From a virus, in IMG/VR virus record IMGVR_UViG_3300035698_002699, positions 1-20,050 of that record: a stretch of DNA of 20,050 nt. One strand, given 5' to 3'. The notes beneath the pieces were generated by a model. That model did not search any database. It was not told the DNA's origin and saw only the letters and a program-made list of their open reading frames with translations. The first letter of the stretch is position 1; every line of letters begins with the position of its first letter. The translations under genes were made by a program, and so were the position numbers. Shown here in pieces: positions 1,568 to 19,441 of the stretch.

Positions 1568-4420
1568 GTGGCGGCTTCGGTCGACATCATCGAGGACTCG
1601 CTAGTTGAGATAGCTACAGGGAACAACGACCCGTACTGCCGCGCTATCTACAAGCGCATGCTACAGGCCTCCCTGCCCTTGTTTATGAAGGACATCCTCA
1701 AGATGGAGGTGGGCCCGCATATCTTCGAGTGGGGCGACTTAGTAAATGGCACGCGTAGGCTGGCGCTGAACGCGGCACGTGACCACTGCCAACCCGGCTC
1801 GGCACTTGTTCTAAGTAGCAGTGGCACCCGTGTGCGCCTGGACGAGTGGCAGGGCGGCGAAGTGCTGGCTATGAACGCCAAGGGTCGTCTCGTCCCGAGT
1901 TACGCGGCACCTGCGCAGTCGAATGGAGACAAGCGCTGCCTACGCATCCGGACTCGCACAGGCCGCACTACCGAGGTTACCACCAACCACCCACTGCGGA
2001 CTTTCGAGCGGTGGGTTCCTGCAGGGGAGTTACAAGCTGGCGATAGGATCGCAGTACCTCGTACTCTTCCCGTGGCAGGCACAGTAACGCTACGCGCGTC
2101 CTGGCTCATGGGTTTGCTCATTGGGGATGGCTCGCTCACTTCAGGTCACTGTTCTGTATCTACGGGCGATCCGCTGGTAGTGGCCGAAGTACAACGGGTT
2201 GCTGCCGCTCTTTCTTGGAAAGTAACTCACAATGGCAAGTTCAACTACAGCCTGCACGCCAGCTACCAGCGCCAAGGAAGCCCTCGCAACTGGCTGCGCA
2301 CTTACGGCCTATTAGGCTGCGGATCTTTTACTAGGCGGATTCCGCAAGAGGTGTTTACTGCGACTAATGCCTGTGTGTCGGAGTTGTTAGCGGGTTATTT
2401 TGACGCTGACGGCTGTGTCAACCAGCACGCAGGAGGTAGCCTCTACTACGCGTCAGTGAATCGCGGGCTACTTACTGATGTCCAGCACCTTCTGCTGCGT
2501 TTTGGCGTTGTAGCCGTGATTACGCGCAACCAAAGCACGTATAATGGACAGCCTCACCATTCGTGGATGCTCACCATTCGTGGAGACAGCATTCTAGCCT
2601 TCCACAACGCTATCCCTCTAAAAGGCAGTAGGTGCTCTCAACTAAAAGACTTAGTAGCTGCGTTGACCCAACGTAGTCCTATGTCGGGACGCACGGTAGA
2701 CTCATTCCCACCTAGCGTGTGGTCTCATGTAGAGCACTCCCGCCACTGGTTCGACAAAAACGGGCACACAAGGCCAGGCAGCCCCTCCCAGCAAAGCAGA
2801 GTTACCCGTGCACGAATCCGCCGAGTTGCGAACGCAGAAGGCAACACCAAGCTTTTGGAGATTGCCGATTCCGATGTTCTTTATGATGAAATCGTTTCGA
2901 TTGAGGACATGGGAGTACAGCCTACCTGGTACGTATCAGTGCCTGACTTGGAGAACTACGTAGGGGACGACTTCGTACAACATAATTCTAAGAGCGCCAC
3001 GTTTTCATACGCGTACCCGATCTGGCGTGCCTGGGGAGACCCTGGTCAGGAAGTCTATCTGTTCAGCGCTACGTTAGAGCAGGCTATCGAGTTCCTGGAC
3101 ATCATCATCTACGGGCGTAACAACCTGATGGGGATGCTAGACATTCCGGGGTTAGCGGACCTTGTCCCCGGAAAGAATGACTTCCACTACGACCCGAAGC
3201 TCAAGATCAATAAGACCGACGTACGGATGAAGAACGGCAGTCGTCTTAGGGCTATTGGCTACGGAAAGAAGACCCGAGGTAGGCACCCTAAGTACATCGT
3301 GTTGGACGACGTACTAAACGACGAGGACATGTACTCGGATACCGTGCGGCGGAAGCATATCTCGTACTACGAGTCGGCTATCGTCAATATGGTCACGCCT
3401 GATGGCCAGATCGTAAACGTCGGAACACCGTACCACCAGGGCGACCTGTGGGGCTGGTTCAACGCGAACCCTGTCTATACGTTCAGGCGGTACCCAGGCA
3501 TCTACACGGACAAGAAGGGCGTAGAGCGAGCACTGTTCCCGTGGCGCTGGACGGTCAAGGCGCTCAAGCAGAAGAAGCGCGAGATTGGCCCTGTCGCGTT
3601 CACACGAGAGATTCTCTGTCAGCCGATCTCGGATGACCTGTCGCTGTTCCCTTCAACCCTGTTCCCACCACTGCAGGACAACAAGCTAACTCTCAGGCCT
3701 ACGCGTACGCAGATTCGCGAGAGGAACCTCAGCGTGTACACGGGCGTGGACATCGCGCTCTCCGCTTCGGTAGGCGCCGACTATTTCGTCATCTTCACCA
3801 TTGGTGTCGATCCGAAAGGCAACCACTACATCCTAGATATTTACCGTGCCCGAGGCGTGGGGTTCCAGGACCAGCTAGGCCTGATCGAGAAGCACTGTCG
3901 GCGGTATGGCACGCAGCTGTGTTTCATCGAAGCCAACGCCGCCCAGCGCGTGTGGTCTGACGAGATGAAGCGAACCACTGACGTTCCGGTCAAAGCCTTC
4001 GTCACCACTGCCCAGAACAAGTACCCCCTTGATAAGGGTGTGCCGGGGCTACGAATCCTACTTGAGAACGAGAAGCTGGTTATCCCTACGGGCGACCTGT
4101 ACTCCAAAACGCAGACAGAAGTCTGGCAGATGGAGGCAGCCCAGTTCGGTTTCGTCGACGGCAAGCTCCAGGGTGCTGGTACCCACGATGACACCGTTAT
4201 GGCGTGGTGGTTAGCAACTGAGGCCGCCAAGTTCGGAGGGTTTACGTTTGCCATCGGTGACGACGAGGAGGACGACGCCGATATGGACGAGCTGCTAGGT
4301 GGGGACGTTGACTGGGAGGCTGTCCTGCTTGGCGAGGAGGAGGACCCTATCGACCAGGGCGATACCGACGCAATCGACCTAGCATTTGACGCAAACCCAC
4401 TTGACGCGTTCGGCGTTTAG
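1568..4420 (+). CDS. terL: terminase large subunit precursor, interrupted by an intein
   Basis: ATP-driven DNA-packaging motor and headful/cos nuclease. The 950-residue precursor has a 73-residue N-extein, a 400-residue intein (74-473) and a 477-residue C-extein, giving a 550-residue spliced protein, normal for the family. The ATPase P-loop is split: ARDH (70-73) joins SKSAT (474-478) after splicing. Walker B is YIVLDD (576-581). The C-terminal RNase H-type nuclease shows its acidic residues at D728 (GVDIALS), E788 (CFIEANA) and D874/D875 (THDDTVMAWW). The last ~55 residues are very acidic (EEDDADMDE and EEEDP), which is unusual and may mediate a protein contact. The start is GTG, supported by AGGAG at 1554-1558, nine bases upstream. 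It is the first recognisable packaging gene and is followed by head genes. No obvious small subunit is seen nearby. Confidence 0.95.
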   Translation: MAASVDIIEDSLVEIATGNNDPYCRAIYKRMLQASLPLFMKDILKMEVGPHIFEWGDLVNGTRRLALNAARDHCQPGSALVLSSSGTRVRLDEWQGGEVLAMNAKGRLVPSYAAPAQSNGDKRCLRIRTRTGRTTEVTTNHPLRTFERWVPAGELQAGDRIAVPRTLPVAGTVTLRASWLMGLLIGDGSLTSGHCSVSTGDPLVVAEVQRVAAALSWKVTHNGKFNYSLHASYQRQGSPRNWLRTYGLLGCGSFTRRIPQEVFTATNACVSELLAGYFDADGCVNQHAGGSLYYASVNRGLLTDVQHLLLRFGVVAVITRNQSTYNGQPHHSWMLTIRGDSILAFHNAIPLKGSRCSQLKDLVAALTQRSPMSGRTVDSFPPSVWSHVEHSRHWFDKNGHTRPGSPSQQSRVTRARIRRVANAEGNTKLLEIADSDVLYDEIVSIEDMGVQPTWYVSVPDLENYVGDDFVQHNSKSATFSYAYPIWRAWGDPGQEVYLFSATLEQAIEFLDIIIYGRNNLMGMLDIPGLADLVPGKNDFHYDPKLKINKTDVRMKNGSRLRAIGYGKKTRGRHPKYIVLDDVLNDEDMYSDTVRRKHISYYESAIVNMVTPDGQIVNVGTPYHQGDLWGWFNANPVYTFRRYPGIYTDKKGVERALFPWRWTVKALKQKKREIGPVAFTREILCQPISDDLSLFPSTLFPPLQDNKLTLRPTRTQIRERNLSVYTGVDIALSASVGADYFVIFTIGVDPKGNHYILDIYRARGVGFQDQLGLIEKHCRRYGTQLCFIEANAAQRVWSDEMKRTTDVPVKAFVTTAQNKYPLDKGVPGLRILLENEKLVIPTGDLYSKTQTEVWQMEAAQFGFVDGKLQGAGTHDDTVMAWWLATEAAKFGGFTFAIGDDEEDDADMDELLGGDVDWEAVLLGEEEDPIDQGDTDAIDLAFDANPLDAFGV
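1787..2986 (+). mobile_element. intein with LAGLIDADG homing endonuclease, in-frame in terL
   Basis: This 400-residue self-splicing element begins with Cys74 and ends with His472-Asn473, and the first residue after it is Ser474, as splicing chemistry requires. The block B motif is T138-T-N-H141. The homing endonuclease has two LAGLIDADG-type helices, LMGLLIGDG (ending at D187) and LAGYFDADG (ending at D281), both with the catalytic acid intact. The C-terminal splicing region runs from about YDEIVSIEDMG to FVQHN. All expected splicing and nuclease residues are visible, so both activities are probably intact. The insertion site is the codon junction between His73 and Ser474 in the ATP-binding loop, a highly conserved target. 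Some intein segments (for example around 2340-2400) look more AT-rich than the exteins, fitting separate origin. Confidence 0.95.
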
Positions 4421-4484: not shown

Positions 4485-4498
4485 GGGCATTTTTGCCC
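4485..4498 (+). promoter_or_regulatory. short hairpin in the leader of the 137-residue protein gene
   Basis: GGGCA and TGCCC pair perfectly around a TTTT loop and end four bases before the ribosome site GGAGA (4502-4506). It may protect or tune the message. It lacks a downstream T-run, so it is not a terminator. The rest of the 93-base gap holds only a second small inverted repeat, GGTAG-AAC-CTACC, near 4451-4463. Confidence 0.35.
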
Positions 4499-4513
4499 TA
4501 CGGAGAATACCCA

Positions 4514-4927
4514 ATGAGAGAATCAGCACGAGAACTAGCAGTAGCACCAGCCACCGAAACCGCACTATACCAAGACCAAACCGAGATTGTTCGGGGCCTT
4601 GGCAAGCACCTTACCGAAGCGTTTATCGCTCAGGTTCTGGGAGCAGGCGGAGCAGGCGGAGCAATCCTCAACGTCCCTTTCGAGCCAGCTGTTATCGAAG
4701 TGTCCGAGGCTACCGGACCTACTCTTACTAAGTCGATTCGCGGTGGCGGTATGCCAGCTGCAGTTGAACTCAATATGATTTCGGGCGCTGTCAACGCCAA
4801 CCCTCCTGTGGTGACGCAGGTTGGCCCTGGTGCCTGGACCGTCACCTTGCCTACAGCGCTTGCCCCCGATGGGGATACGGCAACCGTCGTCATGTACGGC
4901 GTGAGCCACGCGGGCGGTAGTCTCTAA
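4514..4927 (+). CDS. putative small structural (decoration-type) protein, 137 residues
   Basis: The chosen start is ATG 4514, with GGAGA seven bases upstream; a TTG at 4493 lies before that ribosome site and is unlikely. The N-terminal third looks helical (QDQTEIVRGLGKHLTEAFIA) with a flexible GAGGAGGA stretch at about residues 43-50. The remainder is beta-rich and ends in WTVTLPTALAPDGDTATVVMYGVSHAGGSL-like strands, a style common in phage head decoration or fibre-attachment proteins, but no family is recognised. It contains one LTKS motif (residues 71-74), the recurring tag of this module. It sits between the terminase and the giant gene, and a head-surface or minor head role is inferred from position only. 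Confidence 0.75.
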   Translation: MRESARELAVAPATETALYQDQTEIVRGLGKHLTEAFIAQVLGAGGAGGAILNVPFEPAVIEVSEATGPTLTKSIRGGGMPAAVELNMISGAVNANPPVVTQVGPGAWTVTLPTALAPDGDTATVVMYGVSHAGGSL

Positions 4928-5033: not shown

Positions 5034-8000
5034 ATGAAAAAGAAGCTTAGTAAGTCTGAAAAAGCACGATGGTCCCCCTCAGAGCGAGGGCATCACCCTA
5101 GCTATTCGAGTGAGAAAGTTAGGCGTCTTGCCGCAAGCGGCATGGGCGAGATGCACGCAGTTGCGCACGCAGCCGAGCGCATGTTCCGCACTGAGAAAGA
5201 AGACCGCACGGGTAAGCTCCCCCGCGTGGCGCACACGCTACAGGACGTCACCCGAGGCCTAGGCCTGGACTCCGCAGCAGAGCAGCAGATTCAGAAGCTA
5301 GTGGGTGAATCGAACCCAGAGTTTCAGCCCAAGGGGCAAACCGTACGCATCTTCCACGCGCGCCAGCGCTTAGTAAGTACGATGCGCGAGAGTTGGAAAC
5401 ACCTCGACAGCATGGTGCGCGCTGAAGTGACACAGCGTGCGATGGCCTACTGGAAACACCACTACAAGACCGACCACTGGCGCAAACCCGCCATCCGTAA
5501 CGAAAGACCACCCATGAGCAAGTCTGATCCAGTCGCTGTCATCACCCTGGCTAAGCTTGAGGAGCTGGAAAAAGCGCAAGCCACGGGAGGTAAGTACTAC
5601 CGCCGAGTAGCTACGGGTAAGCCTAACCGACCTTGGAGGTACTACTACACCAAGGAGGCATATGAAAACGCACAGGGGTCAGACAGTCATTTGCACGGCC
5701 CTGACCTGAAGGAGAAGAACCCCGAGGAGCAGGCAGGCGAAGCCCTAGCGGACGCAATCATCAAGGCCATCCTTTCCGGCAACTCAGACATGATGGCTGG
5801 CTTGGTGGACTCGCTGGCTAACGCGGGCAGCGCAGTCACGGTTGAGGCGTGCATCAAGCGGCTATGGAAGGCGCTGGACGAAGCTAAGCGACAACTTGCT
5901 AACGCCACTAAGGGTGGCAAGAACTCAGGCCCTAAGGGCGGCGGCAAGCGTGGTCCTCGAAAGGCTACCGCTGCCGAACCCAAGAAGGTTAGCAAGTTGG
6001 CTACACTGGTAGCAGGCCTAAAGCTAGCGCTCGGCATGGCAGACAAGGTGCGTAAGCAACTAGGCGGCAAGATCAGCGCGCCAGTAGTAGCACCCCCTCC
6101 GTCTGGACCGTCGGAGTCAGGCACAGTCATGGCTAGCATCGCGGCAGCCAACAAGTTTGGCGTGAGCTTGGGCGTAGGCGACCAGATCAACACGCGCTAT
6201 GGACTCATGACGGTCGCAGGGCCTCCCACAGACCACGGGGGAGGTAGGGGTGTGCGCGTTCCTATGGAGGATAAGAGAGGCCGCCAGACGAACGTAGAAC
6301 TGCTTGTGTACGCCAGCGGCGGCGTGCACATGCTCTGGGGCGATCACGGTAACGGTGATCCAGGTGAGCTATCCCAGGTGAGCACGGGGCCAGCACCAGT
6401 AGAAGCAGTACCTACACCCGTACTAGACACCTACGGGTCTGACTTGAAAGTCCCGCCAGTCATGCTGGGGCTCAAAACGCAGGTTCTAGGCAAGCTCTCT
6501 GTGCTCACTGAGGCCACTCCTGGTACGGTGTCTATCTTGGGGGTGATGCTCGCTGATACCAGCCAGGCAGCAGCGCGCATCCCCGAGGGGACGCCAGCAC
6601 GCGCTTGGTTCGATAGCCAGATCACTACCCCTATTCAGCAGCGGCTGGCCTCCTTGCGGGCAGAGGCTAGCACTGGTGACGTTGAGCAAGACAAGTGGGT
6701 AGCTGCGCGGGCAACACTCGCGGGCAACACACTAGGCATAAACCTAGCGGTAGGGGGTACGTTCCAAACGAACGCAGGTACGTTCAAAGTCGTAGGAGAC
6801 CCGTACGAGCAAGCTAATCAGGGTGCCTCTATCCGGGTAGTGAACACAGACCCCACGAAGGTAGACCGAGCTAACGCGTTTTCCGTGGACAAGGCAGGCA
6901 GTTTGACGCTTACGACGTCATACGAACCTGTAGCTATCGAGTCTGCTAGTGCTGCGCCTGAGCCCAACACAGCGCGATGGGATCAACATAAGCCTATCGC
7001 CGCAGTTGCTAACTTGGAGAACATCGCAGACGAAGCGATTAGTAAGATGTCGCTGCCAACGGAGGAAAACTTAGCTGGTATTCAGCGTATGATCGACCTG
7101 GTGGACGGGGCTGCGAAGGAGATGTCCAGCCCTATGGATCAGAAGTGGGTCAGCAAGGTTGTGGTCTCAAAGCTGTATGACCACCTGCAAGATCTGCGAG
7201 ACAAGAAGGCTAAATACGGGGGTGCCAATCCCGAGGGACGGCCTGGCGTAGCACGGCGTATCAGCATGGCAGCACAGAACAAGTTCGGCGTAGACCTTAC
7301 GCCAGGTTCTAAGGTGACAAACGAGTGGGGTACGTTTGAGGTAGTTGCGGCGCCACAGGACTACAAGGGAGGTAAGGGCATCTTGGTACCAGTGGTCAGC
7401 ACAGGCAGGAACCGGAAACCTGCTGACATCTTGATCTACGCCAAGAGCGGCAACGTTGTCATGCATGGCGGCGGCGAAGGACACGGCGAAACAATCAGAG
7501 GTATGAAGCAGGCGGTAGACGCGCCAGCGCCTGCTGTTGCAGAGCCGACCGCTACGCCTACTGAGACCCCCGAAGAGCGGCAGGCGAAGTGGAAGGCCAG
7601 GCAAGTTCTCAAAGAAGAAGCACTTGCTGCCGAGCTAAAAGCAGAGCGTCTTGCCGCGTTTGCTGAGCGGGGCATCAACCGCGTAGGCCAGCTCGTAAAG
7701 GTGGACGGTAATGACGTACCTTTCGTAGTAGTAGGGCTGCATGACGTCTATCTGTCGCTGCGCTCAACCGAGGGAGGTAAACGTATCAACGTCAACATGG
7801 ACAAAGTGGCAGGACTCACTGGCACTGACCAGGATGTCACACGGGACATGCTCTCTCCTGCGGGGGCTAAGGACTACCTAGACGCGGTAGCCTCGTATGG
7901 GGCGAAGGACGACGGCGTTGCTCAAGCAGCCGCTGAGGCAGGCCGTGCTCGCTTCGAGGCTACTGCCGCTAAGCCCGAAGCAGCCACGCTAGGCGTCACT

Positions 8001-11000
8001 GTGTCAGAGCCAAACCATACTACCATTAGTGTAGCCAGCCCTGCGTCACTCATTACCACAGCGGTTCAGAACTGGCGTAGCGGTAACAAGGAGGCGGCAA
8101 TAGCTGCACTAGCTGCTCCGGAGACACTAGCCGATCTAGCAGCTGTGACTGCCGAGTTAGATAAGCAGGTGAACAAGCTATACGCTGATCCGACAGTAGA
8201 CCGCGCGACATTGACAGGACTTCGCGACGAACTAACAAGGCCCATCCAAGCAAAACAGAAGCAACTCGAAGAAGCTGCTAGCAAGGCTAGGGGCCCTGAG
8301 TTTGTGGGAGATAGCAAGTTCAACTTCAACATAAAAGAGGTGAATGGCCGCTTTGTGTTTGAAGGACTTAGCACTCTAGGCCGTAGGATAGCTTTCAAGA
8401 ACAACATCGCACGCAGAGGTACTGCCAACATAGAGCACGCCAAGCGTATCTATCACCTGATCTACGCTGCAGAGGAAAAGGCGCAACAAGAGAGCATGGA
8501 GCTGATCCATAACAAAAAGGAGCTATCAGAGGCTGATGTCTCCAAGTGGGGAGCACTTATGCGCTCCCCCGAAGGCACAGGGACGCATGTTATCAATAAG
8601 CGCAATAAATGGTATTTCAAGGATACCCCCTTCGCCGTCAAGGATGAGCTAAAGGCAGCTGGGGGCCGCTGGAGCAAGGCAGAGCGCGCTTGGTACTTCA
8701 GTGACAAGAAGTCAGCAGCTTATGCGTACATAAAAATAACGCCGCTGCTTGCCAGCATTGTAGCCGAAACCACCGCTGCCGCTGCGGAAGTAGAAGGGGA
8801 GCTAGATAGTAGGCGCAAGGCAGGCCTATCGATCTTTGGTGATACTAAGCGGTACCACGCAGTTATCGTAGCAGCAGGTGGTAAATGGGATAGCAGCAGC
8901 AAGCAGTGGCTTATGCCTTCGGCAGAGGCAAAGGCTCGTGTAGAACAGGCCATGCGTCCTGAGCCTAGGCTGGTAGTGCCTTTCCCTACTCAGGCACCTA
9001 CCGTGGCAGCTCCTACCGTGGCAGCTCCTACAGGCCCAGCTCGTGGCGAGATTGGCCACACAAGTAACGTTCTCCTTCCTCTAAATGGTGCACCACTCCT
9101 AGGTACCCCTGTACTCTTTAGAGGCAACTGGGTTGTTTTCAAAGCAACAGGTAGGAAGGAGTACATCACAGAGGATCATCCCTCCTATAAAGGCTCGCAC
9201 CTGTTAGGCCATGAGGAGACTATGGGTTTCTACGCTACGGCTACGGTAGTAGCTCCGCCAACTGCTAAGCCCGAAGCAGCCACGCTAGGTGTCACTAAAC
9301 CAGAGCCAAAGCTTATTGTCCCAAAAGCAGGTAACCGCGCGCCGAAGGGCACCCCGCGCGCGGACGCAAAACGAGCTGCACTAGAGTACTCCGCAGACCA
9401 TGAAGCCGTGAATGCTCGTGAGAGCAAGTTCATGCCTTTTGGTAGACACGTAAAGAACTCTGCAAAAGAGAAGGCGTTAGCTTGGAAGGGCGTCAAAGAA
9501 GCCATGCTCGATAAACGAGCAGACAAGCTCTTCACGAAGAAGTTCCTCAGCAAAGAGTTTCCACTAGACCTGGTAGGCGTGGTCCAAAGGGCGCCCGTAC
9601 AGAAGGCCCCTGCGGCGCTGTTAGCACACCTCATTATGGCCAAGTTTCCTGCGAAACCTCCTGAAGTTGTTGCAGGAAAACGTGCGTTTATTCTGCAAGC
9701 GACAGCTGCCTTTCCAATGTCACCTAGTGGGGGCAGGGACCCAGGCTACAACGAGGCACTTACTACCGCGCTAGCTCGTTGGGATGAGCTAGATGCTGCG
9801 GAAATAGAGGCATTTAGGGAGAGTGTAGTTGCTAAGTCCCGCGAAGATTACCTAGAAGCGTACAACGAGACTAAGGATATCATCGCAGAAGCTTTGGCAG
9901 GCTCCTACGAGGGTACTCCTGGTGAGGTTCACGAGTTAGTACGCGAGGAGATCAGAACCAAGTTGCGTAGCGCCGTGAGATTGTCAGGTCGCTGGACAAA
10001 CCCAGCTAAGTTTGAGGCGCTTGCCAAAGTGTCAAAAGCAACAACAGCGACTACTAAGTCAGGTCCTAGGATGACCACCAGACTCGTTGTAGAGACCGTG
10101 AAGAAGCAAGTAGGAAGCACTGCTACCGAGGACGTATCTCCGCGCCTGTCTGACGTTGTTATGGACATACTAGAGGGCAAGAGCGTACCGAAGGCGCTTG
10201 GTATCTCAAAGGAGAGAGCAGGCTACGCAGTCGATATCCGAGACATGTACGAAACGAACGAGCTTGCGCGCGTTGGCCCGGACCACGGCGTGAGCGACCC
10301 TTTCAAAGCAGAGGCTACGCTGGCTAAGGGTAACCTAGGGCTGGGCGGCATTACGTACGGCAACTCAATGACGGATGAGGAGCGTGCGCACCACCTACCA
10401 GAACTTGCTAACTCCATGTACGACCTGATGGACGTACTTGGGCTTCCGCCAGCAATGGCTGGTTACAACAACAAGCTTGCTATTGGCCTAGGTTCGAATG
10501 GTAAGGCAGGCGCACTAGCGCACTACGAGCCTAGTAACAGGTACATCAACTTGACCAGGGCCCAAGGAGCTGGCTCTCTGGCGCACGAGTGGGGTCACTT
10601 CTTTGACTATGAAGTGGGCAAGGCAGGCGGGAGCGATTTACCCATTACCGATAAGGAAAACGTCACCCCTATGGGCGAGGCTACAGCACAACTGTTGGAG
10701 TCTCCGGAGTTCCAGACGTACTTCACACGGCTGCGCAAGGCAGTTGCTTCGGCCAGTGGTATGAGCAGTCCTCAGGCTCGGTACTGGTTGAGCGATGAGG
10801 AGTGTTTTGCGCGCTGCTTTGAGAGGCACGTACAGCGCAAGCTGCACAAAGCAGGTCGTGAAAACACGTACCTAGCTGGTATCAAGCCCCGTGCGTACGG
10901 AGAGCACGGTTTCTGGCCTAACGATGACGAGTCTGACGGACTGGCCTCGCACTTCGAGAACATCATGGAGCAGTTCAAAAGTTCTGACTTGCTAAGAAAA

Positions 11001-11933
11001 GCATTCGGGGGTACCACCTCTACGATTCACGGCCAGCAAGTGAAGGTTAGGTTAGTAACCCTGAGCAAGGGCGAGGGCGGCTGGGAAGCTGGCCCTCGCG
11101 GTGGCGTTCGCAAGAAGGTCAACGGCAAGTGGCTCTACAAGCAGGGCAACGTCACAGCGGGTACTGACTCGAAGGAGAAGATTGAATCTGACAAAGCTGC
11201 GGGAGATACTAAGTCCGAGGGTGAGAATCCGATCACTGAAGAAGCCCAGAAAGTGATTGACGCACTCAAGGAAACCAATCCTGAAGAAGCTGCCAAGATG
11301 GAGGCAGCTGCTAAGGGCATTGTCTCTGCCCAAGCTAAGCTTGGGAACAAGCCAAGGCAGCAGGGTGACGAGCTAACGAACCAAGCTATGGCGTTCGGCC
11401 GCGCGTTCAACCAGGCAGCAGCACCTGCCAGCATCCTGGGACCCGAGCTAGGAGGCTTGCTCACCGAGGTAGGTAAGGAAGCCCAAGGAGCTAAGAAGGA
11501 CCCGAAGCTCACTGTCAAAAAGGATGCACCAGCTGCTAAGGAAAAGACCGACGACAACATTAGCGCGGTGGACGTCAAGAAGAGCCAGGCATCCTACATC
11601 ATGCGGGGACCGTCCAGGCCCGATGCGGATCGGCCATCCATTCCGGACTTCAACGCTATCTACCGACACCCGGAAGGCGACGCGCGGCGTAAGAAGGATG
11701 CTAAGGCTGCCGAGGAGCGGCGTAGGTCCAATAGCCGAAAGACCAAGGAGAACATGGGTTTCTTTGGTTCGGCTATTGTCACCCACAGCCCCGTGCTGCG
11801 TCACGAGCCTATCGAAGACGCGAAGAAGACCAAGAAAAAGAAGAAGAAAACCCGCTTTGTGTTGAAGCCCAAAGTTGCCAAGTCACTAACTATCCAGCAG
11901 CTTCAGGCTGCTTTAGCGCCGAAAGGCAAGTAG
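5034..11933 (+). CDS. giant multidomain polyvalent protein with zinc metallopeptidase domain, 2299 residues
   Basis: Domains in order: a basic N-terminus (1-160) with LSKS at 5-8; MSKS (161-164) and a basic-aromatic stretch GGKYYRRV...WRYYY (185-205); a helical part; then a beta-type module three times (366-442, 555-630, 740-819) with helical spacers; a Lys/Glu-rich helix (about 835-880); two DUF5710-like motifs (1193-1228 and 1266-1300); Pro/Ala linkers; a long helical region (about 1400-1630); and a predicted zincin (about 1745-1985) with HEWGH (1851-1855) and DEECFARCFE (1921-1930), which may supply the third zinc ligand. This zincin resembles what is called LPD1 in polyvalent proteins. 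The tail is Lys-rich and ends after VAKS (2281-2284). Polyvalent proteins of phages and conjugative elements are thought to be delivered with DNA to protect or take over the host. ATG follows AGGA by about six bases. Function as injected cargo is inferred. Confidence 0.9.
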   Translation: MKKKLSKSEKARWSPSERGHHPSYSSEKVRRLAASGMGEMHAVAHAAERMFRTEKEDRTGKLPRVAHTLQDVTRGLGLDSAAEQQIQKLVGESNPEFQPKGQTVRIFHARQRLVSTMRESWKHLDSMVRAEVTQRAMAYWKHHYKTDHWRKPAIRNERPPMSKSDPVAVITLAKLEELEKAQATGGKYYRRVATGKPNRPWRYYYTKEAYENAQGSDSHLHGPDLKEKNPEEQAGEALADAIIKAILSGNSDMMAGLVDSLANAGSAVTVEACIKRLWKALDEAKRQLANATKGGKNSGPKGGGKRGPRKATAAEPKKVSKLATLVAGLKLALGMADKVRKQLGGKISAPVVAPPPSGPSESGTVMASIAAANKFGVSLGVGDQINTRYGLMTVAGPPTDHGGGRGVRVPMEDKRGRQTNVELLVYASGGVHMLWGDHGNGDPGELSQVSTGPAPVEAVPTPVLDTYGSDLKVPPVMLGLKTQVLGKLSVLTEATPGTVSILGVMLADTSQAAARIPEGTPARAWFDSQITTPIQQRLASLRAEASTGDVEQDKWVAARATLAGNTLGINLAVGGTFQTNAGTFKVVGDPYEQANQGASIRVVNTDPTKVDRANAFSVDKAGSLTLTTSYEPVAIESASAAPEPNTARWDQHKPIAAVANLENIADEAISKMSLPTEENLAGIQRMIDLVDGAAKEMSSPMDQKWVSKVVVSKLYDHLQDLRDKKAKYGGANPEGRPGVARRISMAAQNKFGVDLTPGSKVTNEWGTFEVVAAPQDYKGGKGILVPVVSTGRNRKPADILIYAKSGNVVMHGGGEGHGETIRGMKQAVDAPAPAVAEPTATPTETPEERQAKWKARQVLKEEALAAELKAERLAAFAERGINRVGQLVKVDGNDVPFVVVGLHDVYLSLRSTEGGKRINVNMDKVAGLTGTDQDVTRDMLSPAGAKDYLDAVASYGAKDDGVAQAAAEAGRARFEATAAKPEAATLGVTVSEPNHTTISVASPASLITTAVQNWRSGNKEAAIAALAAPETLADLAAVTAELDKQVNKLYADPTVDRATLTGLRDELTRPIQAKQKQLEEAASKARGPEFVGDSKFNFNIKEVNGRFVFEGLSTLGRRIAFKNNIARRGTANIEHAKRIYHLIYAAEEKAQQESMELIHNKKELSEADVSKWGALMRSPEGTGTHVINKRNKWYFKDTPFAVKDELKAAGGRWSKAERAWYFSDKKSAAYAYIKITPLLASIVAETTAAAAEVEGELDSRRKAGLSIFGDTKRYHAVIVAAGGKWDSSSKQWLMPSAEAKARVEQAMRPEPRLVVPFPTQAPTVAAPTVAAPTGPARGEIGHTSNVLLPLNGAPLLGTPVLFRGNWVVFKATGRKEYITEDHPSYKGSHLLGHEETMGFYATATVVAPPTAKPEAATLGVTKPEPKLIVPKAGNRAPKGTPRADAKRAALEYSADHEAVNARESKFMPFGRHVKNSAKEKALAWKGVKEAMLDKRADKLFTKKFLSKEFPLDLVGVVQRAPVQKAPAALLAHLIMAKFPAKPPEVVAGKRAFILQATAAFPMSPSGGRDPGYNEALTTALARWDELDAAEIEAFRESVVAKSREDYLEAYNETKDIIAEALAGSYEGTPGEVHELVREEIRTKLRSAVRLSGRWTNPAKFEALAKVSKATTATTKSGPRMTTRLVVETVKKQVGSTATEDVSPRLSDVVMDILEGKSVPKALGISKERAGYAVDIRDMYETNELARVGPDHGVSDPFKAEATLAKGNLGLGGITYGNSMTDEERAHHLPELANSMYDLMDVLGLPPAMAGYNNKLAIGLGSNGKAGALAHYEPSNRYINLTRAQGAGSLAHEWGHFFDYEVGKAGGSDLPITDKENVTPMGEATAQLLESPEFQTYFTRLRKAVASASGMSSPQARYWLSDEECFARCFERHVQRKLHKAGRENTYLAGIKPRAYGEHGFWPNDDESDGLASHFENIMEQFKSSDLLRKAFGGTTSTIHGQQVKVRLVTLSKGEGGWEAGPRGGVRKKVNGKWLYKQGNVTAGTDSKEKIESDKAAGDTKSEGENPITEEAQKVIDALKETNPEEAAKMEAAAKGIVSAQAKLGNKPRQQGDELTNQAMAFGRAFNQAAAPASILGPELGGLLTEVGKEAQGAKKDPKLTVKKDAPAAKEKTDDNISAVDVKKSQASYIMRGPSRPDADRPSIPDFNAIYRHPEGDARRKKDAKAAEERRRSNSRKTKENMGFFGSAIVTHSPVLRHEPIEDAKKTKKKKKKTRFVLKPKVAKSLTIQQLQAALAPKGK
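6129..6359 (+). repeat. beta-type protein module, copy 1 (residues 366-442)
   Basis: The module begins MASIAAANKFGVSLGVGD and shows the shared pattern NKFGV-x-L-x-x-G, a short G-containing strand turn, a V-x-x-P step, GGGRGVRVP and a final strand ending in WGDHGNGD. It aligns best with copy 3 at 7251-7490. Size and pattern suggest a compact beta barrel, possibly SH3-like. Confidence 0.7.
6696..6923 (+). repeat. beta-type protein module, copy 2 (residues 555-630), diverged
   Basis: The segment ATLAGNTLGINLAVGGTFQT, then GTFKVVGDP, then ASIRVV keeps the spacing of copies 1 and 3 but has lost the GGKG turn. It is the most divergent copy, so its assignment is less certain. It is flanked by helical spacers like those around the other copies. 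Confidence 0.55.
7251..7490 (+). repeat. beta-type protein module, copy 3 (residues 740-819)
   Basis: The module reads RISMAAQNKFGVDLTPGSKV, then WGTFEVVAAPQDYKGGKGI, then LVPV and a closing ILIYAKSGNVVMHGGGEGHGE. It matches copy 1 closely in the NKFGV core, the P-x-D-x-GG-x-G turn and the strand before the Gly/His-rich end. Confidence 0.7.
7968..8000 (+). repeat. 33-base linker repeat in giant gene, copy 1
   Basis: This encodes AKPEAATLGVT. It differs from the copy at 9264-9296 at a single base (GGC versus GGT). Both copies lie in Pro/Ala-rich linkers between domains, suggesting recent duplication or recombination at domain borders. Confidence 0.85.
8610..8717 (+). repeat. DUF5710-like motif, copy 1 (residues 1193-1228)
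   Basis: The pattern WYFKDTPFAVKDELKAAGGRW, followed by SKAERAWYF, matches the familiar order of a beta strand, a helix K-D-x-x-K-A-x-G-G-x-W and a strand with W-Y. This motif is known from DUF5710-type domains in TraC-like primases and polyvalent proteins, where nucleic acid binding is suspected. Confidence 0.65.
8829..8933 (+). repeat. DUF5710-like motif, copy 2 (residues 1266-1300)
   Basis: The pattern SIFGDTKRYHAVIVAAGGKW, followed by DSSSKQWLMP, repeats the AAGG-x-W...W order of the first copy about 70 residues later. The two copies differ greatly outside this core, so the duplication is old. Confidence 0.6.
8997..9026 (+). repeat. 15-base tandem repeat, two perfect copies
   Basis: The unit CCTACCGTGGCAGCT occurs twice in a row and encodes PTVAAPTVAAPT in a flexible linker. 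The perfect match suggests recent slippage. Confidence 0.9.
9264..9296 (+). repeat. 33-base linker repeat in giant gene, copy 2
   Basis: This encodes AKPEAATLGVT with one base difference from 7968-8000. It marks the linker before the long helical region of the protein. Confidence 0.85.
11109..11141 (+). repeat. basic-aromatic module RKKVNGKWLYK (copy in giant gene)
   Basis: Residues 2026-2036 of the giant protein match residues 192-202 of the next protein (12516-12548) at ten of eleven positions, with four base differences in 33. It follows LSKG (2010-2013) and GGWEAGPRGGV. A looser relative, GGKYYRRV...WRYYY, lies at residues 185-205 of the same protein. Confidence 0.75.
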
Positions 11934-11942
11934 AGTCTGATT

Positions 11943-13433
11943 ATGTATGAGAAAATCAAGCCCATCATGCGCGGTGTCGATCTACCCGAGGGTACGTTGA
12001 GCGCCAGCAACTACGTAGGTGATCCCGAAGAGGGCAAGTTCCTCGACTGGGGCACCACCTTTGCGAAGGCCGAGGTAGACGGTACTCCCAGTGAGCTTAG
12101 CAAGGCATACGCTACCGCGGAGCAGTTGCAAAACCACGGAGCTTTGGACATGCAGGCCGCTGTAGGCCCGTACGTGCCACCAAGCACAGAGGCTGTCATG
12201 GGTTCCATGGAGATTACTGGCGAGACTGTGGTGGACCTAGGCGACTCCCCAGTGGCTACAAATCCGCAGGCTGACAGCTGGATTGACTGGGATACGAACC
12301 TAGGCCTAGGCGGCGTGGGTGACGATGGAATGACCGGTTTCATGGAGTCCTCCAGCATGGGCCCTGGCACCGCACGTCCTGCTTTCAACTACGACGAGCA
12401 GGAGCCTGAGGATACTGACGACGAGACCGACGAGACGGCAAAGTCGATCAACGACAGCATCAACGATATGCGTAAGAGCTTCGGGGAGCTGCTTAGTAAG
12501 TCGGAGTATCTCAGCCGCAAAAAGGTCAACGGTAAGTGGCGTTACAAGTATGCGGCCACCAAGGACGAGCCGACTATCAACGCCGCGAAGGGAGTGGCAT
12601 ACAGTAAGCCTGTGCGCATTGGCTCTTCAGAAGGAGACACGCTGTTTGTCCGCAAGGTTTGGAGCGCTAAGGCCTCTAAGCAAAAGCACGGCATGCCTAA
12701 AGGTACTAGCTACGAGGCAATCATCGTAACAGAAGCAGGTCACCACTTTCCGATTGCTTATCGGAAGACTGCCAAGGAAGCGAAGGCACTCCTGATCAAC
12801 GAGTACACGCCCGAAGAAGGGCCAGCGAACATCGAAAAGGCGATGCCCCCATCGGTACAGCAATCAATGTACCAGTCAGACGTGTACGGCCGTGAACTTA
12901 CTAAGAGCCTATCGGTGTATGAGCAGGCGGACGCAGTCATTCCGGATGAACAGCTGGCTTCCTACATGACTACGTTCGTGGAAGTTGCCGCTTCCGAGGG
13001 AGCAGGTGCTCGGGAGATCATGGGCGCACTTGTGAAGAGCATCCCTGGTAATGCCAACCTTGCGCGTGCTGCGGATATGTACAACGTGAGCCTTGGTACC
13101 GTGGAAGGGCTGCTTAGCAAGTCCGACCAGTCAGGCACGTACACTTCGGCTGTTACGGGCTTCGTTCCTGAGCCTGCCCGCACGGTGGGCGCTTCCATGT
13201 CAGCAAGGCCAGACACCAGCGGTGGGGGATTCATCAAGAGTGAAGTACTCGATCATAAGTCAGCACTTACTAACCGTAGGGCGGCAGCCCAGACGGCAGC
13301 CTGGCGAGTTACTACGGGCGATGAGCCTGTAGTTGCTAACGTGTCTAGCAAGTGCCCAATCCACAACGGTTTGGATCTTGGCAAGTCCGCTAACGTTGCC
13401 AACCCATACGCGCCTTGTACGTGTAACCTCTAA
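11943..13433 (+). CDS. unknown head-module protein with many KS tags, 496 residues
   Basis: No known family is recognised. The N-terminal 150 residues are acidic and low in structure (EEPEDTDDETDET-like near 155-165). Residues 184-203 carry LSKSEYLSRKKVNGKWRYKY, shared with the giant protein. A mixed alpha/beta part follows (about 210-290), then helical segments interrupted by LTKS (319-322), LVKS (363-366) and LSKS (391-394). The C-terminus has CPIH...CTC, a possible small zinc site. Nine KS pairs occur, far more than expected for this length. It starts nine bases after the giant gene's stop, with a weak ribosome site, and ends three bases before the portal ATG, so it is part of the same operon. 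A cargo, internal head or portal-associated role is inferred from position and tags. Confidence 0.85.
   Translation: MYEKIKPIMRGVDLPEGTLSASNYVGDPEEGKFLDWGTTFAKAEVDGTPSELSKAYATAEQLQNHGALDMQAAVGPYVPPSTEAVMGSMEITGETVVDLGDSPVATNPQADSWIDWDTNLGLGGVGDDGMTGFMESSSMGPGTARPAFNYDEQEPEDTDDETDETAKSINDSINDMRKSFGELLSKSEYLSRKKVNGKWRYKYAATKDEPTINAAKGVAYSKPVRIGSSEGDTLFVRKVWSAKASKQKHGMPKGTSYEAIIVTEAGHHFPIAYRKTAKEAKALLINEYTPEEGPANIEKAMPPSVQQSMYQSDVYGRELTKSLSVYEQADAVIPDEQLASYMTTFVEVAASEGAGAREIMGALVKSIPGNANLARAADMYNVSLGTVEGLLSKSDQSGTYTSAVTGFVPEPARTVGASMSARPDTSGGGFIKSEVLDHKSALTNRRAAAQTAAWRVTTGDEPVVANVSSKCPIHNGLDLGKSANVANPYAPCTCNL
12516..12548 (+). repeat. basic-aromatic module RKKVNGKWRYK (copy in 496-residue protein)
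   Basis: This is the partner of 11109-11141, ten of eleven residues identical. It directly follows LSKSEYLS (residues 184-191). Sharing between two unrelated proteins suggests a transferable tag rather than part of one fold. Confidence 0.75.
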
Positions 13434-13436
13434 GCC

Positions 13437-15110
13437 ATGACAATCATCAAAAAAGGGCTCGCCGAGACGGCGCGCGGTCTCGCTGAATGGGTATCCAAAA
13501 GTGAGGACGACGTACCGCAGTCGGAGATGATCGACCTGCTATCCAAGTCTGGAATGGCAACGGCGAGTCCAACCACCGAAAAACCCCGAGGCATGTACCA
13601 CGACCCCTACGCGGTTATGGACTGGGGTGGGTGGCGCCAGCGGCCAAGTTCTTTGACGTACGCAACGCTGGCACAGATGAGCGAGGCGAATACGGCCATC
13701 GCCGCGATTATTCAGCTACGTGTGAACCAGGTAGCAGCGTTCTGCCGTCCACAGCAGGGACGTTACGACAAGGGTTTCCGCATCTCCTTGCGTGACCGTC
13801 GCGACAAGAACAAGGGCATGAGCAAGGGTGAGCAGAAGGAAGCCGAGCGTATTGAGCGGTTCCTCGAAACAACTGCGGTACTGCTTCCAGACGAGAGGCC
13901 TGCGGACCGAGACAGCTTTCGGCAGTTCTGTAAGAAGGGCGTGCGGGATACGCTCACCTACGATCAGTGGTGCTATGAGAAGATTCGTGACCGCGCTGGC
14001 AGGCCTTCTCGCTTCCATGCACTGCCTAGTGAGACGATTCGACCTGCGGTCAACGAGATGGAGCACCTGAGCCCGAAGGAGCTTCGGGAGCGTGTCTCTC
14101 ACGTGCAGGTCTACGAGAACTCTGTGATCTCTGAGTTCGCCTCTGACGACATCGCTTGGTGTGTCATGAATCCGCGCTCGGCGTTGCACGTGAACAGCTT
14201 TGGACTGTCCCCCGTGGAGCAGCTCGTGCGACTCGTGACGGCATGGCTCTACGGCTTCACGTACAACCAGAACTTCTTCAGCCAGGGAAGCGCTATCAAG
14301 GGCTTGCTGAACATCAAGGGCACCATCCCTGACAGGCAGCTCCGAAGCTTCCGCCGTATGTGGTACTCGATGATTTCGGGCGTGAACAACGCCTGGAAGA
14401 CTCCGATTCTGAACTCGGAAGAAGTGCAGTGGATTTCCATGCACTCCACTAACCGCGAGATGGAGTACGCACAGTGGATGGATTGGCTTACTAAGTTGAT
14501 CTGTGCGGTGTACGGCGTGGACCCTATTGAGATCAACTTCATCTTCGGAGGTGGGGGCTCTGGTGACGGTGGCAGCATGTTCGACTCACGCCCGAACGCG
14601 GCTGAGGTAACGGAGTCGAAGGACAAGGGGCTCCTACCGCTAATCAACCACATTGAAGACAGCGTGAACTCGCACATGATCTGGGACTTGAATCCAGACT
14701 TTGAGTTCAACTTCTCAGGCTTCGACTCTGCGTCAGAAGCTAAGGAGCGCGAGGGACTTGCTAGGGACGTGACTACGTACCGAACCATCAACGAAGTCAG
14801 AGCATTCATGGATGAGGAGCCACTACCAGGCAAGCTTGGGGACATCATCCTCAACCCTGTCTACCAGCAGATGGCTGCAGCCGGAGCAGCACCTGCTGAA
14901 GAAGGTGGAGGGGGCTTGCCCTTCGACTTTGGTGCTGACGAAGACACAGACAGCGACGACGAGCTAGGCGAGTCAGACACTGCGTTCGACAAGCAACAGG
15001 CTTCGGAGTCAGGGGGTGCAGATGCAACAGAGAAGTCAATCACGAACTCTCTGCAAAAATCACAACGCGTTAGCAACAGGCTAGCCGAAATAGACAACTG
15101 GCTAGTTTAG
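13437..15110 (+). CDS. portal protein, 557 residues
   Basis: Forms the ring at the head vertex through which DNA passes, and is the docking site for the terminase. Length and sequence course fit an HK97-type portal: an N-terminal segment, a core with SEANTAIAAIIQLRVNQVAAF (about 81-101), TYDQWCYEKIRD, the ALPSETIRP strand, NPRS...GLSPVEQLVRLVTAWLYGF (about 243-279), and YGVDPIEINF (359-368) before a Gly-rich loop FGGGGSGDGGSMF. The C-terminus is acidic (GADEDTDSDDELGESD). VSKS (19-22) and LSKS (35-38) lie in the extreme N-terminus and LQKS (539-542) in the extreme C-terminus, outside the core. The ATG follows the previous stop by three bases with no good ribosome site, so translational coupling is likely. 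Confidence 0.9.
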   Translation: MTIIKKGLAETARGLAEWVSKSEDDVPQSEMIDLLSKSGMATASPTTEKPRGMYHDPYAVMDWGGWRQRPSSLTYATLAQMSEANTAIAAIIQLRVNQVAAFCRPQQGRYDKGFRISLRDRRDKNKGMSKGEQKEAERIERFLETTAVLLPDERPADRDSFRQFCKKGVRDTLTYDQWCYEKIRDRAGRPSRFHALPSETIRPAVNEMEHLSPKELRERVSHVQVYENSVISEFASDDIAWCVMNPRSALHVNSFGLSPVEQLVRLVTAWLYGFTYNQNFFSQGSAIKGLLNIKGTIPDRQLRSFRRMWYSMISGVNNAWKTPILNSEEVQWISMHSTNREMEYAQWMDWLTKLICAVYGVDPIEINFIFGGGGSGDGGSMFDSRPNAAEVTESKDKGLLPLINHIEDSVNSHMIWDLNPDFEFNFSGFDSASEAKEREGLARDVTTYRTINEVRAFMDEEPLPGKLGDIILNPVYQQMAAAGAAPAEEGGGGLPFDFGADEDTDSDDELGESDTAFDKQQASESGGADATEKSITNSLQKSQRVSNRLAEIDNWLV

Positions 15111-15928: not shown

Positions 15929-17698
15929 ATGGCTCAAAAGAAAAGAGGAGCGCCTAAAAAGGCATCACTGGTCCGTCCTGCTAAGGGTACGGGCCATGCC
16001 GTTTTGGATGACTCCCTAGATGCAGTAGACATCGCGTATACAGCGACCATCGACAGGATGTTCAAGGAGCTGCTCAAGTATATCAGCAAGGAAATCGTAC
16101 CAGGGGCCAAACTTAGCAAGTCCACGTACCCAACCGACGAGATGATTGCTTTCGCCACGAAGGACGATGGCAAGTTCCCCTCGGACCCTACGCGCGAGCG
16201 GTTCACGCAGCAGATGAGCCTGCTCACCCCTGCACAGCTTGAGACCGTGAAGCAGATTATCAAGGACTACCATGGAGCCTTCGCGGTGGGCGTCCTTGGA
16301 CCCGACTCCATCCCGAGGGCAGAGCTAGAGCGACTAATAAAGGTGGGTATCATTCCGGGAGACCTGGCCTTTGTGTTTCAAGCGGAACCAGGTGAGAGTG
16401 CTCCCCCTTCGATGGCCATCACGGACTTAGCATTTGAGTACGGTAGGCACCGCGGAGATGCTCGCCAGAAAGGCACCTCTGTAGAGCTGGACATGGCGAA
16501 GTTCCTGGAGCACTTGGAAGCGACCCATAACCCGCTGAGCGAGATGGAGCGCAACGCGATGGCCTGGAGTCGCTACAACGCAGGCGAGCACATGCGTAAC
16601 GCAGGTGACCGTTTCGCTAGCAAGGTAGCAACATCCATTCTGGACGAGGACGGCGAGCAACGCAGGCGCTACGTAGGTGTAGTAACTCGCGAGCTGGAGA
16701 CCAACATCGAGAAGCGTGAGAGCTGGCGCAAGCTCGCCAGCGAGATCGGTCACGCAACAGAGGACTGGTCTAGGGATATGCAGCGGCTAGCTGCCACAGA
16801 GACGCAGTTTGCAGTCGAGGAAGGAGCAATGCGGGCGATTGCTAAGGATCGAGACCCAGAAGACATCCGAGTTGCTAAGATTCCGAATGCAGACGCGTGC
16901 AAGACCTGTATCAAGCTCCACCTAACCGCTGGTGCTGGTTCTCCTCCGCGTATCTTCGGAATGAAGGAGCTTCAAGCGAACGGCACGAACGTTGGTAAGA
17001 AGCAGGCAGACTGGCAGGCCACCGTGGGACCCGTACACCCTTGGTGTTTCTGTACCCTTACAGAGGTGCCCGATGGCTGGGCCTTCGATGAGGAAGGGGA
17101 TCTAGTACCTGAGGTACTACTACAGAAGTCAGGCGACCGATTAGACCACGCAGCGCTACGTCTTGCTAAGTCGAGTGCTACTACGATGACGTTTGGCGCT
17201 TCGGTTCCTCGCAAGGGGGTAGTAGCTCGCGTGTCCGATCCGCGGCTACTTGAAGTAGTGGAGCAAGTCATCGCCGAGACCCCTGACGCCATCTTTGACT
17301 CCAAGGTGGGCGTGACTCTGATTACCGTGGACATGCCTCGCGCACAGAACCCGCTACAGGAGCACGACTACGCGTACTGGACTGCCAACGAGATACGGTT
17401 GAACCAGTCCCTGTCTCCGGAAAAAGCAGCACATGTACTCAAGCATGAGCTAGGGCACTCGCTGAATGTCTACCTCATGAACCAGCTGGGCGGACCCGAG
17501 CCCGTGCGGGCGTGGCATGACAAGCTGTGGGCAGTCTCAGAGCCCGAGGGCTTCGTGAGTGCTTACGCGAAAAAGCTTCCCATCGAGAATGCGGCGGAAG
17601 TGTCACGCATGTACCTTTATGAACGAGCGAAGCTCATGGTCAGTTACCCGCTTCAGTTCGCGTTCGTGCACAAGTACTACCGAGGGATTTTCCAGTGA
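15929..17698 (+). CDS. MuF-type head morphogenesis protein fused to a zinc metallopeptidase, 589 residues
   Basis: A minor head protein of the Mu gpF/SPP1 gp7 family, normally bound to the portal and packaged in few copies. LSKS (62-65) lies in the N-terminal part. The MuF domain (about 245-395) shows RLAATETQFAVEEGAMRAI, ADACKTCIKLH with C324 and C327, GKKQADW, and HPWCFC with H370, C373 and C375, a probable zinc site. A linker with LQKS (398-401) and LAKS (412-415) follows. The C-terminal domain (about 425-589) is a predicted zincin: KHELGHSLN with H506, E507 and H510, and SAYAKKLPIENAAE, where E557 or E553 may be the third ligand. Fusion of toxin-like enzymes to MuF is known in temperate phages. 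No ribosome site is seen. Its stop overlaps the next start. Confidence 0.9.
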   Translation: MAQKKRGAPKKASLVRPAKGTGHAVLDDSLDAVDIAYTATIDRMFKELLKYISKEIVPGAKLSKSTYPTDEMIAFATKDDGKFPSDPTRERFTQQMSLLTPAQLETVKQIIKDYHGAFAVGVLGPDSIPRAELERLIKVGIIPGDLAFVFQAEPGESAPPSMAITDLAFEYGRHRGDARQKGTSVELDMAKFLEHLEATHNPLSEMERNAMAWSRYNAGEHMRNAGDRFASKVATSILDEDGEQRRRYVGVVTRELETNIEKRESWRKLASEIGHATEDWSRDMQRLAATETQFAVEEGAMRAIAKDRDPEDIRVAKIPNADACKTCIKLHLTAGAGSPPRIFGMKELQANGTNVGKKQADWQATVGPVHPWCFCTLTEVPDGWAFDEEGDLVPEVLLQKSGDRLDHAALRLAKSSATTMTFGASVPRKGVVARVSDPRLLEVVEQVIAETPDAIFDSKVGVTLITVDMPRAQNPLQEHDYAYWTANEIRLNQSLSPEKAAHVLKHELGHSLNVYLMNQLGGPEPVRAWHDKLWAVSEPEGFVSAYAKKLPIENAAEVSRMYLYERAKLMVSYPLQFAFVHKYYRGIFQ

Positions 17699-18369
17699 AA
17701 GTGAAACTTGTAAAACCCGCACGTGGCGAGGGCTACTCGGTAGAAGCGTACCCGCTAGGCGAGTACATGCCTTACCAGGGTATGCGTATTGCCATTGAGA
17801 GCCCTGCAGGCAGCAAGCGTTACTGGTACGACTCCAACACCAAGGAGAGCGGCGAGACCGTCATGACGTACCCGTACGGGTTCATCATCGGAACCATGGG
17901 CGCTGACGGTGACGAAATCGACTGCTACGTGGGCCCTTACCGTGGCAGCCGTAAGGTGTTCATCATCAACCAGCGGAAGCTCAAGCGAAAGAACGCATTC
18001 GCCGAGCACAAGGTAATGCTGGGCTTTGAGACCGAGGAACAGGCCCGAGAAGCTTACCTGGGCAACTACAACGAAGTAGGTCCCCAGCTACTAGGCAGCC
18101 TGCGGGAGTGGACCCTTAGCAGGTTCATCAAGTGGGCGTACCGAGGTACTAAGTCCCGTCCAGTCCGTAAATCAGTACCTTACGCCGTGTACCACACTGC
18201 TAGGGACGCACGGTTTGCTAAGTCCCATCTTGCTAACCAATACCCAGAAACGGATCTATTTGACCTGCCATATTCAGAGGTTCCCCAGGAGCTACGTAAA
18301 GCTGGACACCCTACAGAAGGCTGGTACTTGCTAGGTCCCAAGCCGCTCCGACTAGAAGTGGGGCGCTAG
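17695..18369 (+). CDS. inorganic pyrophosphatase-like protein, 224 residues
   Basis: Residues 71-77 read DGDEIDC, an exact match to the soluble inorganic pyrophosphatase signature D-[SGDN]-D-[PE]-[LIVMF]-D-[LIVMGAC], with D71, D73 and D76 as likely metal ligands. The surrounding YPYGFIIGTMGADGDEIDCY, then YVGP and VFIINQRKL, fits a short phage-type pyrophosphatase domain (InPase) known from polyvalent proteins. It continues with FAEHKVMLGFETEEQAREAYLGNY and ends near residue 150. The known enzyme family hydrolyses pyrophosphate to phosphate. VRKS (157-160) and FAKS (174-177) separate this domain from a 50-residue C-terminal part of unknown role. GTG overlaps the preceding TGA by four bases, with GAGGG eight bases upstream. 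The true substrate is not proven. Confidence 0.8.
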   Translation: MKVKLVKPARGEGYSVEAYPLGEYMPYQGMRIAIESPAGSKRYWYDSNTKESGETVMTYPYGFIIGTMGADGDEIDCYVGPYRGSRKVFIINQRKLKRKNAFAEHKVMLGFETEEQAREAYLGNYNEVGPQLLGSLREWTLSRFIKWAYRGTKSRPVRKSVPYAVYHTARDARFAKSHLANQYPETDLFDLPYSEVPQELRKAGHPTEGWYLLGPKPLRLEVGR

Positions 18370-18616: not shown

Positions 18617-18647
18617 TACCGAGGCCTAGTCAACTTAGTGACTTTTG

Positions 18648-18684
18648 AGGCGGGAATCCCAGGAATGGGGTCCTCGCCTTTTTT
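18648..18684 (+). terminator. intrinsic terminator or attenuator before the protease gene
   Basis: AGGCGGG (18648-18654) pairs with CCTCGCCT (one G-T pair), and an inner CCC/GGG stem closes around AGGAAT. A run of six T bases (18679-18684) follows directly. This is a good Rho-independent terminator shape and ends only 14 bases before the ATG of the next gene. It probably ends or reduces transcription from the upstream operon, or attenuates transcripts started at the candidate promoter. Confidence 0.7.
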
Positions 18685-18698
18685 CGTTTCTGGAACCC

Positions 18699-19427: not shown

Positions 19428-19441
19428 TCAACGGAGAAAAC

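Follow-up and report, generated by a model that had tools for sequence, protein, structure and literature searches.

A giant polyvalent-type protein in a phage head module, with a candidate capsid-targeting leader followed by a putative capsid-type processing motif

Giant head proteins and the gene order of the window

To our knowledge, how giant ejected proteins enter phage heads has been worked out in only a few cases, namely, T4, P1, and SPN3US. The T4 precedent is a leader on internal head proteins that is removed by the prohead protease. In P1, the 250-kDa DarB protein, the product of ORF 10 adjoining the portal (ORF 11) and the protease (ORF 12), is packaged via an N-terminal signal (PMC9024508), and the head protease trims DarA and the capsid protein (PMC9024508, PMC12810830). 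The portal and ejection proteins of SPN3US carry N-terminal propeptides of 111–254 residues, with serine preferred at P1′ (PMC10052503).

The DNA analyzed here (hereinafter, the window) is an IMG/VR virus record of 20050 bases and probably represents a fragment; all genes and protein features of the window given below are on the plus strand. The ORF at positions 5034–11933, with supporting Pfam matches, encodes a 2299-aa polyvalent-type giant protein (LPP). The original prediction of a gene of this type and length, with a zincin, is confirmed: the ORF is intact, with 2299 codons open from ATG, the HEWGH motif is present, and LPD1 scores above the cut-off. With the phage polyvalent proteins, as they are described by Iyer et al. 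2017 (PMC5512222), LPP shares a large multidomain organization, a zincin-like MPTase, LPD1, and a late-gene context; compared with the proteins covered there, LPP has just one recognized enzymatic domain. The zincin/LPD1 assignment is clear, the DUF5710-like stretches remain sub-threshold, and the internal repeats R1–R3 have no assigned role. The P1 DarB/DdrB system resembles the arrangement that we propose for LPP in that a giant internal head protein with an N-terminal capsid-targeting sequence is encoded beside the portal and the protease, whereas DarB differs from LPP in containing helicase/methylase domains and a targeting sequence of under 30 residues (PMC9024508, PMC12810830). Pfam yielded no matches in LPP to helicase or methylase domains of the P1 DarB type or to a T7-like RNA polymerase domain of the N4 virion RNA polymerase type; a PDB sequence search with LPP and a PADLOC run produced no match either.

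The gene order in the window, that is, TerL, g4, LPP, g6, portal, MuF-type protein, InPase, protease, and scaffold, bears out the expectation that LPP belongs to the head module, and LPP is encoded among virion genes, as characteristic of phage-type polyvalent proteins. The predicted placement between terminase and portal holds for the order but not for direct adjacency, g4 preceding LPP and g6 lying between LPP and the portal. The terminase large subunit (1568–4420) contains a LAGLIDADG intein (about residues 73–473) that sits at the ARDH/SKSA junction; in the related contigs L003–L005, both parts of the terminase match almost contiguously, so that these terminases lack the intein. The conserved small gene g4 (4493–4927) has an uncertain start. 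Downstream of LPP, the head-module protein g6 (11943–13433) contains 7 φ-x-KS motifs (0.95 expected) and a KVNGKW mini-module, and the portal (13437–15110) has its best matches in SPO1-type phages. In g9 (15929–17698), a weak match to MuF-type minor head proteins is followed, at the C-terminus, by HELGH (a weak metalloprotease match), the second HExxH motif in the window; HExxH is retained in the relatives G003 and G004. InPase (PF18823) is encoded by a separate gene, g10 (17695–18369), and is fused to the portal and the zincin in another locus, L012 (7325–15583). The prohead protease (18645–19427) has a candidate C-terminal LAK182↓S site followed by an MCP-like peptide. The scaffold gene (19424–20050), incomplete at the window end, encodes 3 φ-x-KS motifs and includes an acidic hexamer repeat (AGGACG) at 19716–19752.

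Domain architecture and relatives of the zincin module

Three internal repeats of LPP, R1 (residues 367–440; 6132–6353), R2 (residues 561–640; 6714–6953), and R3 (residues 739–815; 7248–7478), align with each other better than in all 500 shuffles, and the module at residues 885–949 (7686–7880) is weakly common to L100 (E 7e-4). For the segment at residues 1086–1183 (8289–8582), the search found no relatives, and a pattern-based search of viral contigs detected none for residues 1086–1330 and 361–830. DUF5710-like repeats had been predicted as well: two copies exist, D1 (8583–8741) and D2 (8793–8948, in part common to L105), whose mutual alignment outscores every one of 500 shuffles, but the DUF5710 assignment itself (PF18974) reaches, over two stretches, only 21.9 bits against a cut-off of 26.5. 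The two parts originally described as matching nothing recognizable fared differently: residues 1095–1190 indeed yielded no relatives, whereas the stretch at about 1400–1630 falls mostly within a conserved module.

This zincin module (residues 1435–1989; 9336–11000), delineated from viral relatives and a model with a mean pLDDT of 80, consists of a conserved helical part followed by the zincin proper. Residues 1435–1760, which are conserved together with the zincin in many relatives, are predicted with high confidence to be mostly helical. The zinc motif HEWGH (residues 1851–1855; 10584–10598) is intact, the HExxH residues and the downstream E1923 being invariant across 28 sequences. D1858, three residues after HEXXH, is also invariant, and the histidine of AHYEP, at the end of strand 2, is nearly invariant in set A1 and less so in A4; an aspartate in this position and a conserved histidine before HEXXH are features of the phage-type clade according to Iyer et al. 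(PMC5512222). LPD1 (PF18796; residues 1915–1983; 10776–10982) corresponds to the C-terminal half of the zincin and scores 47.4 bits against a cut-off of 27, whereas CLCA_X (NF041907) reaches only 82 of the 260 bits required by the NCBI cut-off. A Foldseek search of the PDB with the 601-residue model of the zincin region yielded no significant match. In structural alignment (VIA-align), the best matches of the zincin domain were lethal-factor/PPEP-type gluzincins (Z 8.9, rmsd 3.9 over 177 residues; PPEP-3, Z 7.0), with middling Z scores and a sequence identity of 11–16% that indicate only a shared fold. This likeness (Z 7–9) agrees with Iyer et al., who connected the MPTases of polyvalent proteins with lethal factor (PMC5512222).

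A search with the zincin module identified 14 viral loci when the whole protein was used, and profile searching raised the number to 48. Local profiles detected at least one terminase, portal, MuF, or protease gene in 40 of 47 viral loci, although these do not represent 40 independent lineages because many are close copies. In the close group L002–L005, the set of TerL, g4, giant gene(s), portal, g8, MuF, protease, and scaffold is for the most part preserved as far as the contigs extend, and the interval between g4 and the portal is occupied by two or three giant genes that encode other domains, such as ddrB-ParB. One of these giant proteins (L003, 9827–15124) combines the ddrB-ParB domain with another HExxH motif (HELGH at residue 699). 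In L006, L009–L011, and a freshwater group, the zincin module lies between the portal and MuF or beside MuF, the order in the freshwater lineage being TerL-portal-LPP-MuF. In L012, the zincin module is joined to a Mu-type portal and to InPase within a single 2752-aa protein, and in L048, the portal is in the same long frame as the zincin module. The recurrence of this layout across divergent phage contigs, some with the Mu-type portal fusion, supports the polyvalent-type assignment. Phages phi296, phi315, and phi367, virions of which were purified on CsCl for the data set PXD061229 (PMC12502783), likewise encode giant proteins with a zincin region in common with LPP (29–31.5% identity). The homologous giant gene of Stx phages, situated beyond the tail genes, counts against a head-protein reading. 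Among 27 loci from genome contigs, mostly, of Bacteroidota, profiles recognized a head gene in only one, and these loci neither support nor refute the head linkage because they might be too divergent for the profiles used.

The original prediction of packaging would have been contradicted by homologs that always reside in replication or conjugation modules. The neighborhood survey shows no such restriction, although 286 plasmids, including 77 conjugative ones, have the zincin core alone, which hence is not diagnostic of heads. We considered and rejected a conjugative origin of LPP as the main reading: the similarity to plasmids is confined to the zincin core, which amounts to at most 13% of the query among the matches listed.

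The φ-x-K-S motif and the N-terminal domain

In the window, [LIVMFA]xKS is enriched in g6, the protease, the portal, the scaffold, and g9. When the window was pooled with two whole relatives, G003 and G004, [LIVMF]xKS was found 45 times in 17 head proteins against 5.9 expected (7.6-fold), 16 times in six giants against 9.2 (1.75-fold), and 18 times in 200 other genes against 21.9, that is, without enrichment; this test is partly post hoc because the head proteins were grouped by hand after the motif had been seen. After φ-x-K, serine is enriched 7.8-fold and alanine 3.05-fold, and the control motifs xRS, xES, xSK, xKT, xKD, and xKL are flat or barely enriched. Taken by itself, LPP shows no enrichment of the motif (6 against 4.4 expected); the case for this protein rests on motif position and conservation.

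Phages with SPO1-type heads provide independent checks that are not post hoc: the mature capsid chain of phage 812 deposited in the PDB (9row_B) starts at S25, after VVK24, and the GenBank mat_peptide of the A511 capsid starts at residue 24, after ALK23. At the level of sequence, the φ-x-K-S motif of the head proteins corresponds to the site at which capsids of the SPO1 type are processed (812 K24↓S25; A511 residue 23). The scaffolds of SPO1 and 812 contain 11 and 7 motifs against 0.89 and 0.97 expected, respectively, and the tail sheath proteins contain none. The 812 portal is uninformative with regard to portal trimming because the chain was deposited full length. The literature that we searched contained no stated lysine cleavage rule for Herelleviridae. 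With these phages (SPO1, A511, 812), the window shares portal homology, capsid homology in its relatives, and the φ-x-K-S or K-A motif, a putative processing site in the present group, in the MCP, protease, and scaffold; the assignment to the SPO1-type head lineage relies on the portal of the window and on a capsid compared in the relative G003 only, because the window ends before the capsid gene. Unlike in the window, an LPP-type gene is absent from the examined regions of SPO1, A511, and 812. Cleavage of the capsid protein of P1 occurs at E120↓S121 (PMC9024508, PMC12810830) and the SPN3US motif is AXE↓ (PMC10052503), both distinct from φ-x-K↓S; the C-terminal propeptide of the protease comprises 64 residues in SPN3US gp245 (PMC10052503) and a putative 78 here.

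The N-terminal domain of LPP (residues 22–155; 5097–5498) is a candidate capsid-targeting leader. This domain of about 130 residues is conserved, with 30–48% identity, in six other contigs (L100–L105), always in the first giant gene downstream of TerL; among the seven proteins, those of L101 and L102 are close relatives. The cargo behind the domain varies: the window, L100, L104, and L105 have a zincin, L003 has a ParB-type cargo, and L103 has another. AlphaFold2, with the seven sequences as input, models the leader core as helices at residues 64–145 (pLDDT mostly 77–89, with dips to about 61) and residues 150–193, which contain the junction motif, as a linker with very low pLDDT; Foldseek with the N-terminal model (mean pLDDT 56.6) found nothing with E under 0.5. 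Within this linker, M-S-K163↓S164 (5514–5525) is the candidate prohead-protease site. A φ-x-K-[SAG] motif starts 5–26 residues behind the N-terminal domain in all seven proteins, the lysine being followed by serine or alanine in six if threonine is allowed at P3 in L104. The remaining case, L105, has only LEKG, and glycine at P1′ is not enriched in the group, which counts against the cleavage reading. By analogy with SPN3US, P1, and T4, we infer a capsid-targeting role for the N-terminal domain, a leader that the prohead protease would cleave off ahead of ejection. What is new here is a recurrent N-terminal domain on the first giant gene after the terminase, with differing cargo behind it and a φ-x-K-[S/A/G] motif following. 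In the available part of Iyer et al. (PMC5512222), neither a recurrent leader in front of exchanged cargo nor a motif of the prohead-protease type behind such a leader is mentioned.

The giant proteins and g6 additionally contain short modules, GGKYYRR...RYYY, GPxGGKW...W, and KVNGKW, which in the whole called gene sets of G003 and G004 are restricted to giant head-module genes. LPP has one such mini-module at residues 185–223 (GGKYYRRVATGKPNRPWRYYYTKEAY...HLHGP; 5586–5702), with LEK180↓A ahead of it, and another at residues 2012–2040 (LSKGEGGWEAGPRGGVRKKVNGKWLYKQGNV; 11067–11153). φ-x-K-[SAG] occurs within 22 residues ahead of 17 of 19 mini-modules against 3.25 expected, a count that is suggestive because the instances were partly found by eye. 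Two further φ-x-K↓S motifs, at K2183 (11574–11585) and K2283 (11874–11885), lie in the C-terminal tail of LPP.

Candidate route into the head

We favor, with moderate confidence, the possibility that LPP is a packaged and ejected head protein of a phage with an SPO1-type head, the leader of which is cut at φ-x-K↓[S/A] by the prohead protease. By analogy with the known systems, LPP probably travels inside the head and is injected into bacteria along with the DNA. In the proposed scheme, the N-terminal helical domain would bring LPP into the prohead, and during maturation the prohead protease would cut the linker behind the leader, with K163↓S164 as the best candidate; the same specificity would trim the major capsid protein and clear the scaffold. 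The remaining LPP of about 2130 residues, possibly, trimmed at the C-terminal sites, would stay in the head and enter the cell together with the DNA, after which the zincin might separate LPP's own domains or cut a host protein; alternatively, it might act on LPP itself. The computed architecture, the conserved head-module setting, the leader kept in front of exchanged cargo, the motif enrichment, and the agreement with known capsid processing sites speak for this scheme; for the leader and its removal this evidence is indirect, and the part assigned to the zincin is conjectural.

Packaging and ejection might also proceed, as for other polyvalent proteins, with LPP processed by its own zincin or not at all and the φ-x-KS motifs of the giants being incidental. 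Autoprocessing by the zincin was indeed proposed by Iyer et al., with P1 DdrB cited as processed (PMC5512222), the catalytic residues of LPP are intact, and the motif enrichment in the giants is only 1.75-fold; but the recurrence of the junction motif in all seven proteins and its position ahead of the mini-modules speak against an incidental origin, and we consider this alternative unlikely. We find it less plausible still that LPP works in head building, as an assembly factor or an assembly protease, without being ejected: strict linkage to the head module and the portal fusion would fit such a role, but the phage already encodes its own prohead protease homolog, and its size, the exchange of cargo, and the associations with DUF5710-like repeats and InPase suit ejected polyvalent proteins. 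Several copies of φ-x-KS within single proteins could mean that φ-x-KS is a short linear motif for binding the capsid or the scaffold and not a site of cleavage; however, the mature capsid ends of 812 and A511 are located exactly at the motif, and we regard this explanation as equally improbable.

If the favored reading of LPP as a leader-bearing, ejected head protein is true, the leader together with a motif tied to the capsid-processing site would provide a rule for spotting ejected proteins of metagenomic phages from sequence alone, and the cutting signal shared by the leader and the head proteins would make the loading mechanism testable, also in cultivable SPO1-type phages. More tentatively, and perhaps doubtfully, the giants might be polyprotein-like precursors, in which an exchangeable leader delivers the cargo and the protease cuts φ-x-K↓[S/A] linkers before the GG-aromatic hairpin modules, freeing tagged units, with a cut code that would hold across SPO1-type phages.

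The C-terminus of the prohead protease mirrors the N-terminus of the capsid protein in the relative G003 (76408–77145 and 78098–79504) and in SPO1, A511, and 812, the same peptide following the site in both proteins, with a score reached by 0 of 1000 shuffles. For the protease of the window (18645–19427), the comparison with the capsids of its relatives gives marginal scores of 50 and 46, the maxima among the shuffles being 47. This copy of the capsid N-terminus may let the protease compete with the capsid substrate or dock like it.
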